This document shows positions 10,705 to 16,270 of a stretch of 46,106 nucleotides of DNA, piece by piece. The stretch lies in contig ONRL01000024.1 in assembly GCA_900320225.1 (NCBI GenBank), forward strand, positions 1-46,106. The letters run 5' to 3'. Source of the DNA: an uncultured Lentisphaerota bacterium (GTDB taxonomy: Bacteria > Verrucomicrobiota > Kiritimatiellia > RFP12 > UBA1067). The notes beneath the pieces are model-generated. The model made no database searches. It saw only the letters and a program-made list of their open reading frames with translations, and was not told the origin of the DNA. Position numbers and translations under genes: made by a program. The number at the start of each line of letters is the position of its first letter. Position 1 is the stretch's first letter.

Positions 10705-12927
10705 TCACGGCGCAATCGCCTCGGCGCGGCGGATGTAGGCGTCCTGTTGTTCGCGCGGGAGGTCGTTCCAGCGCACGTTCCAGCCGCAGATGCGCACCTG
10801 CAGGTTCTCGTAATCGCGCGGGTGCGCCTGGGCGTCGCGGAGCGTAGCCGCGTCGAACACGTTGAACTGGATGAGCGTGAGTCCGCTTGCGTGGTATTCC
10901 TCCACGAGGGCGCGCATCACGTCGAGGCCCTTGTCGCCGGCGACGGCGGAGGGATGCAGCATCACGTCAAGCGGCATGTCCATCGGCAGGTCGGCGGGAT
11001 CGAGCGCGGCGAGCGTGCGGATGAGCGCGGTGACGCCCTCGGTGTCCGCGCCGGGCGCGGGCGAGAGGTTCTTCGACATCTCCTCGCCTTTCTTCCGGCC
11101 GTCCGGCGTCGCGCCCGTGCGCTTGCCGAAGTCGACGAACCGGCGCGAGCTGTGTCCGCCTGCGACGAACCGACCGCCGCGCGAGTTGGGGATGTTGTTC
11201 GCCTGGCGCGCGAAGTGCTTGGCGATGTCGTGGCCGAGCGCGTTCGCCTCGGGGTCGTTGTTGCCCCACTTGCGCTTCGAGCGGAGGACGCGTTCGCGGA
11301 GCGCCTCGTGTCCTTTCCAGTTCGCGGCCATCGCCTGGCCGAGTTCGGGAAGGGTGAGGAGGCGCTCCTTGTAGACGAGGTCCTCCACGGCGAGGAGGGC
11401 GTCGACGGCGGAGCCGATGCCGACCATCAGGAGATGGGAGTTGTTTCCGTGCGCCGTGCCGTCGTGGAAGGCGTCGCGTCCGGTCTTCACGCTGTGCGCG
11501 ATAGAGAGGGAGAAGAGCATGGAGGGGTTGACCTCGTGGACCCACTTCTCCGTCTCGAACGCAAGTTCGCGCGCCTCGCGGGTGGAGTCCTCGAGCAGCT
11601 GGAGGTAGGCGGCGCGGAAGGCGGGGTAGTCGGGGGCGTCGAACGTGCCGGCGCGGGCGCGCGCGAGGAGCTTCTCGACGGGCTTGAGGACGCTGACGTA
11701 GGAGGGGATCGTGTCGTTGCAGCTGTCGCGGATGCCCCATTCGTAGCAGCCCCAGATGGCGCAGGTGCGCGCCTGCTCGGGCGTGTAGCCGAGGCCGATG
11801 ATCGCGCGGGCGAGGGGCTCCTCGCCGCAGAAGGTGACGGAGCGCTGGCGGCGGGCGAGGTCGAGCGTGGTGCGCCACACCCAGTCGGGCGTGGAGGGGC
11901 CGGTCTTGATGTGCACCTTGGGCGTGGGGAGGCCGAGTTCGTCGTGCACCTCGAGGAGGATGCGGGAGACTTCGTTGTACTCGGTGGTGCCGTCGGCCTT
12001 CGTGCCGCCGAAGTAGACGGGTTGTCCGAAGTAGTTGTCGATGGAGCCCCACTGCCACCAGAAGTGGCGCAGCTGGTCGCGGAACTCGGCCTCGGTGGCG
12101 CGTCCGGCGGCGAGGTCGGCATGGTAGTAGGGCGTGAGGATGCGGTCGAGGTTGGAGAGCGTGCGCACTTGGAAGCCGTCGAAGTTCTCTCCCATCACCC
12201 ATTCGAGGTAGATGAACATCAGCGCCTCGTAGGCGGTGCGGGGCGAGCCGTGGCAGAGGCTCGCGAGGGCGGCGGCCTCGGCGGCGAGGCGGGGACTGGG
12301 CGCGGACTCGTTCGCGCGGCGCGCGTGGTCGGCGAGGCGTCCGACGAGGCGGATCGTCGCGTCGGCGGCGATCCGCCGCGCGTGGTAGTAGGGCGCGTCC
12401 TTCCAGTTCGCGAGGAGCCGGTCGCGCATGCCGGGGAAGCCGAGCGCAAGGATGTCGTCCCAGTCGGGCGCGCAGTGGGAGTAGTCCTTCCACACCACCC
12501 AGCTGCCGTCCTTCGTGCCGGCGGCGATCTTCTTCGCGAGGCCGGGCGAGCGGAGGTTGTCTACCTCGTTGGCGCGCCGCGGCAGGATCTTCCAGAGCGG
12601 GTGGCCGCGGTGGAACGACCACGGCGCGAACGCGGGGAACCAGTCGTGCGGCGACACGCCGATCGCGGTGCGGTCGCATCCGAAGGCAAAGATCTTCGCC
12701 TTGGTGGTCTCCCATGGCTCGTCGCCGCGCGCGGACACGATTTCCTGCCACCCGGCGAGGACGCCGCCGGTGTCGAGTCCGGTGCCGGCGTCCGTCACGT
12801 CGGCGCGCCATTTGCGCTTCAGGTACGGGAGGTCGTTCGTGAATGCGTCGTCCGCGGCCGCCGCGGCGACGAGCGCGGCGGCGAACAGCACCGCGCCACG
12901 CGCGGAAAACGATCGAGATGTTGCCAT
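10705..12927 (-). CDS. Glycyl-radical enzyme homologue (PFL-like) with a signal peptide
   Basis: The 740-aa protein has the pyruvate formate-lyase superfamily hallmarks: the thiyl cysteine and base in GCYE (C394, E396) and a C-terminal radical-loop glycine in RICGW (G715), followed by the usual D-L-x-x-E-x-Q-D-x-Y-I-x-R helix. It lacks the double cysteine of true PFL, so it is an eliminase/lyase-type member of unknown substrate. Residues 1-26 are a basic start, a hydrophobic run (AVLFAAALVAAAAA) and an AxA-like end, i.e. a signal peptide, which is very odd for a radical enzyme activated in the cytosol. The start is supported by a -10 box 6 nt upstream, and the next Met is near residue 167. 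No activase gene is in the window. Single gene, divergent from 13022. Confidence 0.8.
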   Translation of the reverse strand: MATSRSFSARGAVLFAAALVAAAAADDAFTNDLPYLKRKWRADVTDAGTGLDTGGVLAGWQEIVSARGDEPWETTKAKIFAFGCDRTAIGVSPHDWFPAFAPWSFHRGHPLWKILPRRANEVDNLRSPGLAKKIAAGTKDGSWVVWKDYSHCAPDWDDILALGFPGMRDRLLANWKDAPYYHARRIAADATIRLVGRLADHARRANESAPSPRLAAEAAALASLCHGSPRTAYEALMFIYLEWVMGENFDGFQVRTLSNLDRILTPYYHADLAAGRATEAEFRDQLRHFWWQWGSIDNYFGQPVYFGGTKADGTTEYNEVSRILLEVHDELGLPTPKVHIKTGPSTPDWVWRTTLDLARRQRSVTFCGEEPLARAIIGLGYTPEQARTCAIWGCYEWGIRDSCNDTIPSYVSVLKPVEKLLARARAGTFDAPDYPAFRAAYLQLLEDSTREARELAFETEKWVHEVNPSMLFSLSIAHSVKTGRDAFHDGTAHGNNSHLLMVGIGSAVDALLAVEDLVYKERLLTLPELGQAMAANWKGHEALRERVLRSKRKWGNNDPEANALGHDIAKHFARQANNIPNSRGGRFVAGGHSSRRFVDFGKRTGATPDGRKKGEEMSKNLSPAPGADTEGVTALIRTLAALDPADLPMDMPLDVMLHPSAVAGDKGLDVMRALVEEYHASGLTLIQFNVFDAATLRDAQAHPRDYENLQVRICGWNVRWNDLPREQQDAYIRRAEAIAP

Positions 12928-12933
12928 GCGGGT

Positions 12934-12939
12934 AGTATA
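12934..12939 (-). promoter_or_regulatory. -10 box of the glycyl-radical gene (leaderless)
   Basis: TATACT on the minus strand ends 6 nt before the ATG at 12927; no Shine-Dalgarno can fit. Transcription would start at or next to the start codon. A -35 at 17 bp is poor (GTCCAG). Confidence 0.6.
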
Positions 12940-13644: not shown

Positions 13645-14844
13645 ATGAAGACGCTCTACCTCGAATGCACGATGGGCGCGGCCGGTGACATGCTCACCGC
13701 CGCGCTTTTGGAACTTGTCTCCGACCGTGCGGCCGCGCTCGCGCGCATCAACGCGCTCGGCGTTCCGGGCGTGCACGTGCATGCGGATCCCGCGACCGTG
13801 TGCGGGCTCGTCGGTACGCGCGTGGACGTGCACGTCCACGGTCACGTCGAGGAAGAGCACCACCATCACCATCATCACGACCACGGCGACCACGACCACG
13901 GAACGGTGGATGCGGACGCGCAGGAGCGCGTCCCTCCCCATCACCACGCCTCGCGGGCGGACATCGCCGCGCAGATCTCGGCGCTCAACGCGTCCGACGC
14001 CGTGAAGGCGCACGTACAGGCGGTGTACGATTTGATCGCCGATGCCGAGGCGAAGGCGCACGGGCGCCCCGTCTCGGAGATTCACTTTCACGAAGTCGGG
14101 ATGGCAGATGCCCTTAGCGACATCGCCGCGGTGGCATTGCTCCTGGAGGAGCTTGGCCCTGTGCGCGTGGTCGCGAGCCGTCCCGAGGTGGGCGGCGGGT
14201 TCGTGCACTGCGCGCATGGTACCCTGCCCGTCCCCGCGCCGGCCACGGCGCACATCCTCATGGGCGTGCCGTACACCTCGGGCGCGGCCAACTGCGAGCT
14301 GCTCACGCCCACGGGCGCGGCGTTGCTCGTCCATTTCGCCGAATCGTTCGGACCGATGCCGCCGCTGGCGGTGGAGCGGACCGGTCTCGGCCTCGGCCAC
14401 CGCGAGGTGCCGGGGCGCCTGAACGGCGTCCGCGCCTTCCTCGGCAAAGAGGCGGGAGGGACGCGCTCCTGCGCGTCCGCCACGGGTCCGAACGGACGCG
14501 TCGTTGAACTGCGCGCCAACATCGACGACATGACGGGCGAAGACCTCGCGTTCGCCTGCGACCGCCTGCGCGCAGCCGGCGCGCTAGACGTGTCGCTCGC
14601 GCCGCTTGCGATGAAGAAGGGGCGTCCGGGCCATCTTCTCATCGTTCTTGCGCCGCCCGAGCAGGCCGATGCCTTGGCTGCCGCGATCCTCCGCGAGACG
14701 TCCACGTTCGGCGTGCGCCGCGTCGACTGCGCGCGTTATGAACTTGACCGCGAGATCGTTCCGGGAGACGTCCGCGTGAAGGTCGGTCACGGTTACGGCG
14801 TGGAGAAGTCAAAGCCGGAATTCGCCGACCGCACGAAGCATTAA
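13645..14844 (+). CDS. larC: Nickel-pincer cofactor nickel insertase LarC, C-terminally short
   Basis: LarC inserts nickel into pyridinium bis-thiocarboxylate mononucleotide, making the pincer cofactor of lactate racemase and related enzymes. The start MKTLYLECTMGAAGDM, the IHFHEVG motif near residue 150 and the NIDDMTGE segment near 293 are typical. A histidine-rich metal-binding loop spans residues 63-86, with seven consecutive His at 72-78. The protein is one uninterrupted frame, unlike lactobacilli where LarC is made by programmed frameshifting. It ends KPEFADRTKH at 399 aa, apparently lacking about 20 C-terminal residues of the family, and the last codons lie in an array of 7-bp repeats. 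No larA, larB or larE is in the window. Confidence 0.9.
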   Translation: MKTLYLECTMGAAGDMLTAALLELVSDRAAALARINALGVPGVHVHADPATVCGLVGTRVDVHVHGHVEEEHHHHHHHDHGDHDHGTVDADAQERVPPHHHASRADIAAQISALNASDAVKAHVQAVYDLIADAEAKAHGRPVSEIHFHEVGMADALSDIAAVALLLEELGPVRVVASRPEVGGGFVHCAHGTLPVPAPATAHILMGVPYTSGAANCELLTPTGAALLVHFAESFGPMPPLAVERTGLGLGHREVPGRLNGVRAFLGKEAGGTRSCASATGPNGRVVELRANIDDMTGEDLAFACDRLRAAGALDVSLAPLAMKKGRPGHLLIVLAPPEQADALAAAILRETSTFGVRRVDCARYELDREIVPGDVRVKVGHGYGVEKSKPEFADRTKH

Positions 14845-14884: not shown

Positions 14885-16270
14885 ATGGCAACTACACATA
14901 TTGGCAGGCGCGGTTTTTTGGCGGGCGTGGCTGGCGCGGCCGCGTGGAGCGGATGGCGCGCGGCGTTCGCCGGCGTCGGCGCGTCGGCGCGCCGCCCGAA
15001 ACCCTCCGACCGCATCAACCTCGGCATCATCGGCTGCGGCACGCAGGCCTACGCGAACGTGCCCGCGTTTCTCCGCGACGAGCGCGTGCAGATCACCGTC
15101 GTGTGCGATCCCGTCCTTGAGGCGGGCGGCTACAGCTACGACGGGAAGCATCCCGGCGGGCGCAAGGTGTTCAAGGAAAAGGTGGACGCGCACTACGGAA
15201 ACGCGTCGTGCCGCATGACGGCCGACTGGCGCGAGGTGGTGGCGGACCCGACGGTGGACGCAGTCGTGGTGATCACGCCCGACCACTGGCACGCCCTCGT
15301 CGCGATTGCCGCGATGAAGGCCGGCAAGCACGTCTACTGCCAGAAGCCGATGTCCCTCGGCGTGCGCGAGGGACAGGAGATGGTGCGCGTGGCGAAGGCG
15401 AGCGGCGTCACGTTCCAGGTGGGCAGCCAGCACCGGCAGGACAGCAGCTTCCGCCAGGCGGGCGAGCTCGTGGCGAGCGGCTACATCGGCGCCGTCAAGT
15501 ACGCCGAGGTGGGCCTTCCCGGCGCGAACGGCGGCCAGTGGGGGCACGGACGCGACACGTCGCGCCAGGCGCGCCCCGGCTACTTCACGAAGGAGGGCTG
15601 GGACATGTGGCTCGGGCCCTCGCGCCACTGGGAGAACGACGCCTTCATCCCCGCGATCCACGAGCCGATGTGCTGGCGCTGGAACTCCCGCACGGGCGGC
15701 GGCATGATCACGGACTGGGGCGCGCACTGGATCGACATCCTCCAGTGGACGATCGGCGCGGAGCGCACGGGCCCCGTGGCGGTCGAAAACATGACGACCA
15801 ACCTCTCCGACGACCCGTGCCTCAACTGGGCGGACAAGTACGCCTTCGACCTCGTCTACGCCGACGGCTTCCGCGCGCACGTCTCCGATGCCGCGCGCTG
15901 TGGCATCACGTGGCACGGCGAGAAGGGCGACATCTTCGTGGACTGGACGAAGATCGAGCGTCCCGATTTCTTGAAGAAGTGGCGTGAGAAGACCGACCTC
16001 AAGCCCGGCGACAAGCACTTCTACCGCGCGGCGAACGGCCATTCGCACGAAAGCGACTTCATCGACGGCATCTACGAGAACCGTCCGATCGCGACGGACT
16101 GCGAGATCGGCCACCGCTCGATCAGCGCGTGCCACATCGCGAACATCTGCGAGCGCCTGCGTCTCGCGAAGCTCACGTGGGACCCGCAGGCGGAGTCGTT
16201 CACAGGCGCGCATGCCGAAGAGGCGAACCGTCTCCTCGAGACGCCGCACCTCAACGGCTGGACGTTGTGA
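14885..16270 (+). CDS. Tat-exported Gfo/Idh/MocA-family oxidoreductase
   Basis: The 461-aa protein starts with a twin-arginine signal (GRRGFLAGVAGAAA, residues 8-21), so it is exported folded, probably with its nucleotide bound. The Rossmann motif GIIGCGTQAYANV follows near residue 48, and the usual E-K-P catalytic motif appears as YCQKP near 155, with Gln for Glu. The C-terminal half has the family's GGGMITDWGAHWID strand. Such exported oxidoreductases in PVC bacteria are thought to act on sugars or inositols; the substrate here is unknown. It is read from a leaderless promoter and is followed 10 nt later by the M18 peptidase. Confidence 0.9.
   Translation: MATTHIGRRGFLAGVAGAAAWSGWRAAFAGVGASARRPKPSDRINLGIIGCGTQAYANVPAFLRDERVQITVVCDPVLEAGGYSYDGKHPGGRKVFKEKVDAHYGNASCRMTADWREVVADPTVDAVVVITPDHWHALVAIAAMKAGKHVYCQKPMSLGVREGQEMVRVAKASGVTFQVGSQHRQDSSFRQAGELVASGYIGAVKYAEVGLPGANGGQWGHGRDTSRQARPGYFTKEGWDMWLGPSRHWENDAFIPAIHEPMCWRWNSRTGGGMITDWGAHWIDILQWTIGAERTGPVAVENMTTNLSDDPCLNWADKYAFDLVYADGFRAHVSDAARCGITWHGEKGDIFVDWTKIERPDFLKKWREKTDLKPGDKHFYRAANGHSHESDFIDGIYENRPIATDCEIGHRSISACHIANICERLRLAKLTWDPQAESFTGAHAEEANRLLETPHLNGWTL

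Follow-up and report, generated by a model that had tools for sequence, protein, structure and literature searches.

To our knowledge, glycyl-radical enzymes (GREs) are regarded as confined to the cytosol, and so are their SAM-dependent activases, since SAM, strong reductants and anoxia are needed. A gene on the 46,106-nt contig of an uncultured Lentisphaerota bacterium analysed here in full (the window) raises the question whether a GRE can also be placed outside the cytoplasm, as its product, P0002, appears to begin with a signal peptide. An earlier note, made from the DNA alone, had left the choice between an exported radical enzyme and a repurposed scaffold. In the following we argue, at a probability of roughly 0.68, that P0002 is an exported, active GRE which was relocated together with its activase; this estimate applies to the core of the explanation and not to every step of activation.

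The gene and the encoded enzyme

The open reading frame of P0002 (window positions 10705-12927, minus strand) encodes 740 amino acids. It belongs to a 5.2-Mb genome in 351 contigs, and its closest public relatives are MAGs of Kiritimatiellae that come from the gut of goats, sheep and yaks. The gene stands alone between genes of opposite orientation. Those on one side encode metallophosphoesterase and flavin-reductase-like proteins, those on the other small proteins, LarC and a Gfo/Idh protein with a Tat leader. The P0002 gene does not adjoin any activase gene. LarC (nickel pincer cofactor synthesis; 13645-14844) contains a long His-rich stretch, HVEEEHHHHHHHDHGDHDHG. The Gfo/Idh/MocA oxidoreductase (14885-16270; Tat leader HIGRRGFLAGVAGAA) is one example of the Tat-led oxidoreductases of this type in these bacteria; like P0002 they are cofactor enzymes of a usually cytosolic kind with an export signal, but their fold and chemistry are unrelated. 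The features of the gene are as follows.

12934..12939, minus strand: -10-like box TATACT, 6 nt ahead of the ATG (it matches the consensus, which in itself does not show function)
12853..12927, minus strand: Sec-type signal peptide, residues 1-25 (MATSRSFSARGAVLFAAALVAAAAA), with predicted cleavage between A25 and D26 (hydrophobicity null, n/h/c rule, AF2, homologue starts)
10708..12852, minus strand: mature GRE, residues 26-740 (AF2 model and Foldseek)
11146..12489, minus strand: PFL-like domain, residues 147-594 (Pfam PF02901, 7.4e-57)
10765..11076, minus strand: Gly_radical domain, residues 618-721 (Pfam PF01228, 1.8e-18)
11746..11748, minus strand: codon of C394, the thiyl-radical cysteine (GCYE), invariant in 56 sequences
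11740..11742, minus strand: codon of E396, the catalytic glutamate, invariant in 56 sequences
10783..10785, minus strand: codon of G715, the radical glycine (RICGW), invariant in 56 sequences

The start codon had been defended in the earlier note by the -10 box and by the lack of another Met for 160 residues, and both observations hold. The second Met of P0002 is residue 167, and the TATACT box and the ATG are both kept in an orthologue of 92% identity (G005); a mis-called start was rejected on these grounds. The position of the box would place the transcription start at the ATG and would thus give a leaderless mRNA. The absence of a Shine-Dalgarno sequence upstream of the ATG fits a leaderless mRNA, and no Rfam element was found around the start.

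Retention of C394, E396 and G715, as previously claimed, was confirmed by an alignment of 56 subfamily members, in which dozens of further positions are invariant as well. C394 aligns with the corresponding Cys of HypD and of glycerol dehydratase. The AF2 model of P0002, built with the 56 sequences (pLDDT 92, pTM 0.91), has exclusively GREs as top Foldseek matches (PflD, 8yjo; glycerol dehydratase, 1r8w; 1,2-propanediol dehydratase, 5i2g; HypD, 6vxc; TMq 0.83-0.85). Among orthologues, the mature part evolves under purifying selection with a dN/dS of about 0.14-0.2 (dN 0.045-0.062, dS 0.23-0.43). Because the three catalytic residues are invariant and dN/dS is low, P0002 should be active as a GRE, within a subfamily that is as yet unassigned, and on these sequence data we regard radical activity as likely.

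The NCBIfam equivalogs for HypD, glycerol dehydratase, PflD, CutC, HpsG/HpfG and HPAD all score P0002 far below their cut-offs (best TIGR01774 with 222.6 bits against 678.2; HypD with 200.2 against 1100), and assignment of a known GRE function by NCBIfam was therefore dropped. P0002 has a PFL-like barrel with a C-terminal Gly_radical domain, the glycine in an R-V/I-x-G-Y/W loop and the thiyl cysteine, and a subfamily activase, predicted to act on it, is encoded in its own genome (contig C207). Judged by these defining features, which are all those accessible from sequence, P0002 is a member of a new GRE subfamily. It departs from the usual cytosolic character of GREs by its predicted Sec-type leader.

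Among solved structures, a profile comparison places HypD and glycerol dehydratase closest to P0002, and a comparison of folds places PflD, glycerol dehydratase and 1,2-propanediol dehydratase there. P0002 shares with these enzymes the fold, the Cys-X-Glu motif and the radical Gly loop, and its conserved His151 aligns with a His of glycerol dehydratase. It differs from them by an identity of only about 20-23%, a shorter N-terminal part and the Sec leader. PflD (YbiW) was solved with anhydrohexitol phosphates.

Leaders of P0002 and its relatives

In the leader of P0002, the n-region contains two Arg, residues 12-25 form a hydrophobic stretch free of charges (AVLFAAALVAAAAA), and an A-X-A motif lies ahead of D26; the predicted processed N-terminus is DDAFTNDLPYLK. 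This stretch is the most hydrophobic 14-mer of P0002 without charged residues, His, Asn or Gln. Its hydrophobicity was matched in 20 of 20,000 shufflings of residues 2-34 and in 13 of 20,000 random draws from the composition of P0002. The leader is called a signal peptide by a simple rule for n-, h- and c-regions, which is not a trained predictor and also labels 3.4% of internal segments; by this rule-based prediction and the A-X-A motif, P0002 has the make-up of a Sec-exported protein. In the AF2 model, pLDDT drops below 50 solely at residues 1-26. Mature P0002 would begin 9 residues before a YLxxKFR anchor, and leaderless homologues start 10-11 residues before it, so that the predicted cleavage puts the mature start at most two residues from the start of leaderless relatives in other families. 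Because of this proximity, the leaders appear to have been added ahead of a complete enzyme. The signal peptide noticed earlier is thus upheld as a Sec-like segment of residues 1-25 by the hydrophobicity null, the n/h/c rule and AF2 disorder, and P0002 is very probably exported.

Whether relatives keep the leader had been named as a check, and the outcome is in favour of the earlier interpretation: all seven orthologues and most paralogues of the same bacterial family carry one of Sec or Tat type, whereas relatives outside this family are leaderless. The seven orthologues (71-92% identity to P0002) have signal-peptide-like leaders that share 6-11 of 25 residues with that of P0002 (23 of 25 in the nearest one). 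Leaders that are mostly unlike each other in sequence and yet all signal-like are what one would expect if selection maintains physical properties of the segment and not its residues. A quirk of one MAG or an assembly artefact is ruled out by these independent orthologues. The paralogues have Sec, lipobox-like or Tat leaders, the latter with RR or RK (e.g. MKATRRKFLGGMAAVGS and MKISRRMFLEMAAAAAACG); the RK motif also starts other exported-looking proteins of these genomes.

Members of the subfamily with 38-45% identity to P0002 also occur in other classes of the phylum, and those that were read lack a leader; nearly all members outside the family with a readable start have an ATG behind a Shine-Dalgarno sequence 10-11 residues before YLxxKFR. 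They are found at loci, in other families and classes, in which one or two GREs of the same subfamily with the same catalytic residues lie next to an activase and an AraC-type regulator; these loci differ in that the GRE is leaderless and so is the activase where it could be read. The other, non-subfamily GREs of the source genome with N-termini read also look leaderless. A general over-prediction of leaders on all GREs of the genome was ruled out by the latter and by the relatives in other classes. Within the sampled genomes, gain of leaders therefore appears to be confined to one bacterial family. The GRE tree requires at least 10-14 changes of leader state, although many of its forks are poorly supported.

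Several further observations concern members of the subfamily. In one clade (G140:C6, G090:C67, G000:C180 and relatives), LSTGVEIP is preceded by a hydrophobic leader that is very short and carries no charge, MNIAGLMVAAVLST; a leaderless relative keeps LSTGVEIP, and the export status of this clade is ambiguous. The source genome (G000) encodes two more subfamily GREs, one with a Tat leader (L072:7090-9625, contig C128) and one with a Sec leader (L071:8501-11263, contig C131), each split into two frames by frameshift, decay or assembly error. Tandem multi-copy GRE clusters with mixed leader types and secreted proteins occur in G007:C37 (46-67 kb; L064, L065), with several secreted proteins lacking a Pfam match, and in G016:C170 (8-16 kb; L066), which also holds a BD-FAE esterase.

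The activase and its Tat leader

The matching radical-SAM activase of the source genome is encoded on contig C207 (L074:6837-7811) and scores 228.7 bits with TIGR02494 (cut-off 174.35). The earlier note had suggested a search for a co-occurring activase with or without an export signal; the one found carries a Tat leader. Its N-terminus, MKRREFIGIGAAALLPGLLVAREG, lies behind a Shine-Dalgarno sequence, includes KRREFIG and is followed by the exact start point of leaderless activases (MKTPLMLDTKR). In the AF2 model, which has the fold of the PFL-activating enzyme (3cb8), disorder is confined to residues 1-24 and the three C-terminal ones. The twin-arginine motif, a mild h-region and the presence of TatC in the genome (2e-50) mark the protein as a predicted Tat-dependent substrate. 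The Tat leader of the activase, and with it the apparent relocation of the activase along with the GRE, is the main new result beyond the earlier note, which could also not see that homologues outside the family are ordinary leaderless GREs.

Among 35 activases, 16 from 14 genomes including the source genome have Tat leaders and 19 have none; RR or RK variants are present in the 15 other Tat-led proteins. The matching activase is usually single-copy per genome. The GRE subfamily is present in 37 of 162 genomes, the activase subfamily in 34 and both in 30 (Fisher 9e-22). The CxxxCxxC and GGE motifs are invariant in 43 activase sequences and are shared, like the fold, with the TIGR02494 activating enzymes and 3cb8. 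From these the Tat-led activases differ by the Tat signal peptide and by a ferredoxin-like insert with three or four Cys and not eight. This shortening of the insert is seen in the activases of the bacterial family and also in those of related families in the order; in many of them, the C207 activase included (residues 80-93), His replaces the second Cys in what is left of the motif.

In the C207 activase, an in-frame GTG coincides with the first codon of leaderless activases, and the activases of G017, G072 and G076 have an internal ATG or TTG with a Shine-Dalgarno-like sequence there. With such starts in four genomes, a leaderless form of the activase and hence dual targeting is possible, which counts against the explanation preferred here.

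At loci where GRE and activase genes are adjacent, a Tat-led GRE is paired with a leaderless activase in nine cases and a Sec-type GRE with a Tat-led activase in seven; at two loci neither protein has a leader, and at two (G143:C14, G090:C42) a Tat-led activase accompanies a leaderless GRE. Opposite pairings were found at 0 loci (Fisher 9e-5), a result that is not callable significant after phylogeny because the activase tree holds only 1-3 independent contrasts. Among the seven Sec-type GREs in this count, that of G087 has a leader that is weak and uncharged; GREs with weak leaders also occur in two of the genomes with leaderless activases (G007, G014). In G003, G004 and G005, which have a Sec-type close orthologue of P0002, only a leaderless activase was found. 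These three genomes, the two loci with a Tat-led activase beside a leaderless GRE and the isolated position of the P0002 gene speak against the preferred explanation.

Site of activation and alternative explanations

Tat carries folded, cofactor-bearing proteins, and a Tat-type GRE can therefore be activated before export. For a Sec-type GRE, which folds outside, the activase must be outside as well. The pairing of leaders fits activation before export for the Tat-type GREs and after export for the Sec-type ones. We propose that in a family of ruminant-gut Kiritimatiellae an ancestral cytosolic GRE with an adjacent activase multiplied and gained export leaders. P0002 would be synthesised with a Sec signal peptide that can be cleaved off, cross the inner membrane unfolded and fold outside the cytoplasm. 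The C207 activase would fold around its [4Fe-4S] cluster in the cytosol, cross by Tat and abstract a hydrogen from G715 outside the cytoplasm. From G715 the radical would pass to C394, and the thiyl radical would act on a small substrate in the manner of a dehydratase or eliminase, as suggested by the Cys-X-Glu motif. In GRE activation one SAM is used per enzyme and the glycyl radical is catalytic. Since one SAM per GRE is enough, a pre-loaded, single-turnover activase could suffice and would be one way round the supply of SAM and electrons outside the cytoplasm. Extracytoplasmic activation by the exported activase is put forward tentatively, at slightly less than even odds. A complete GRE system outside the cytoplasm, with Sec-type GRE, Tat-led activase, radical-SAM chemistry and glycyl radical in the periplasm, is a possibility to which we give somewhat under an even chance.

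Two flavodoxin-like proteins of the source genome are possible extracytoplasmic electron carriers: one has a Tat-lipoprotein leader, MNRREFVKGSLALAGAAAFFNVGCAK, and is encoded beside a membrane-bound polyferredoxin-like protein (L218:1369-1989, contig C319), the other has a lipoprotein leader (L219:1318-1989, contig C183). An exported flavodoxin as a dedicated donor was rejected, as Flavodoxin_4 is found in 72 of 162 genomes and is absent from many with a Tat-led activase.

An ordinary cytosolic GRE whose N-terminus results from a mis-called start, or is a retained hydrophobic stretch, would mean that the leader brings about no export. The call of the leader is a prediction, and the weak, uncharged leaders of a few subfamily members (MNIAGLMVAAVLST) would agree with such a view. 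However, three kinds of mostly non-homologous leaders recur on the GREs and again on the activases, are fused where leaderless homologues start and lie outside the fold in the AF2 models of both proteins, and the start codon and promoter are conserved; this explanation is very unlikely. If export does take place, the GRE scaffold might have been reused for binding or structure, with loss of radical activity and of the need for an activase. That P0002-type genes are not beside an activase, that the three close relatives with a Sec-type GRE have no exported activase found, and that no SAM source outside the cytoplasm is known would all agree with reuse. Yet a scaffold would hardly keep C394, E396, G715 and dozens of other positions invariant in 56 members, or the low dN/dS of the mature part; a matching activase is present in 30 of the 37 genomes with the GRE subfamily, and activases are themselves Tat-led. 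We consider reuse as a scaffold unlikely. Between the two options of the earlier note, the invariant catalytic residues, purifying selection and co-occurring activase favour the exported radical enzyme over the scaffold.

An exported GRE could also receive its radical in the cytosol, with Tat-type GREs leaving the cytosol folded and radical-bearing and the leaderless partner of a pair travelling along in complex ('hitchhiker' export). The nature of Tat transport, the nine loci with a Tat-led GRE and a leaderless activase and the two with a Tat-led activase and a leaderless GRE agree with this, and activation before export may apply to the Tat-type paralogues. It is impossible, however, for Sec-type GREs like P0002, which must cross unfolded, and seven loci pair such GREs with a Tat-led activase; as an account of P0002 it is improbable.

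We thus continue to prefer the view that P0002 is an active GRE which is exported and whose activase moved with it. No exported GRE was found in the searchable literature, which lacks most subscription journals, and within this scope the predicted place of action would set P0002 apart from every other GRE. Regarding the substrate, only activase and AraC-type regulators recur in the neighbourhoods of other classes, and within the family the neighbours include a BD-FAE esterase that is secreted, GH20, a DUF5696 protein and secreted proteins of unrecognised type, none of them constant, so that the neighbourhood did not lead to a substrate. Since some clusters encode secreted glycosidases and esterases, one might guess at material that derives from glycans or is ester-linked.

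If this family is exported, radical cleavage of C-O, C-N or C-C bonds would become applicable to material outside the cell. An extracytoplasmic activase would raise the question of SAM outside the cytoplasm, and an extracytoplasmic GRE system, if true, implies that SAM and low-potential electrons are present there or that a pre-loaded, single-turnover activase is used. As one and the same enzyme occurs here in Sec, Tat and leaderless versions, with matching and non-matching activases, the site of activation and the survival of the radical on export are directly testable in this family.
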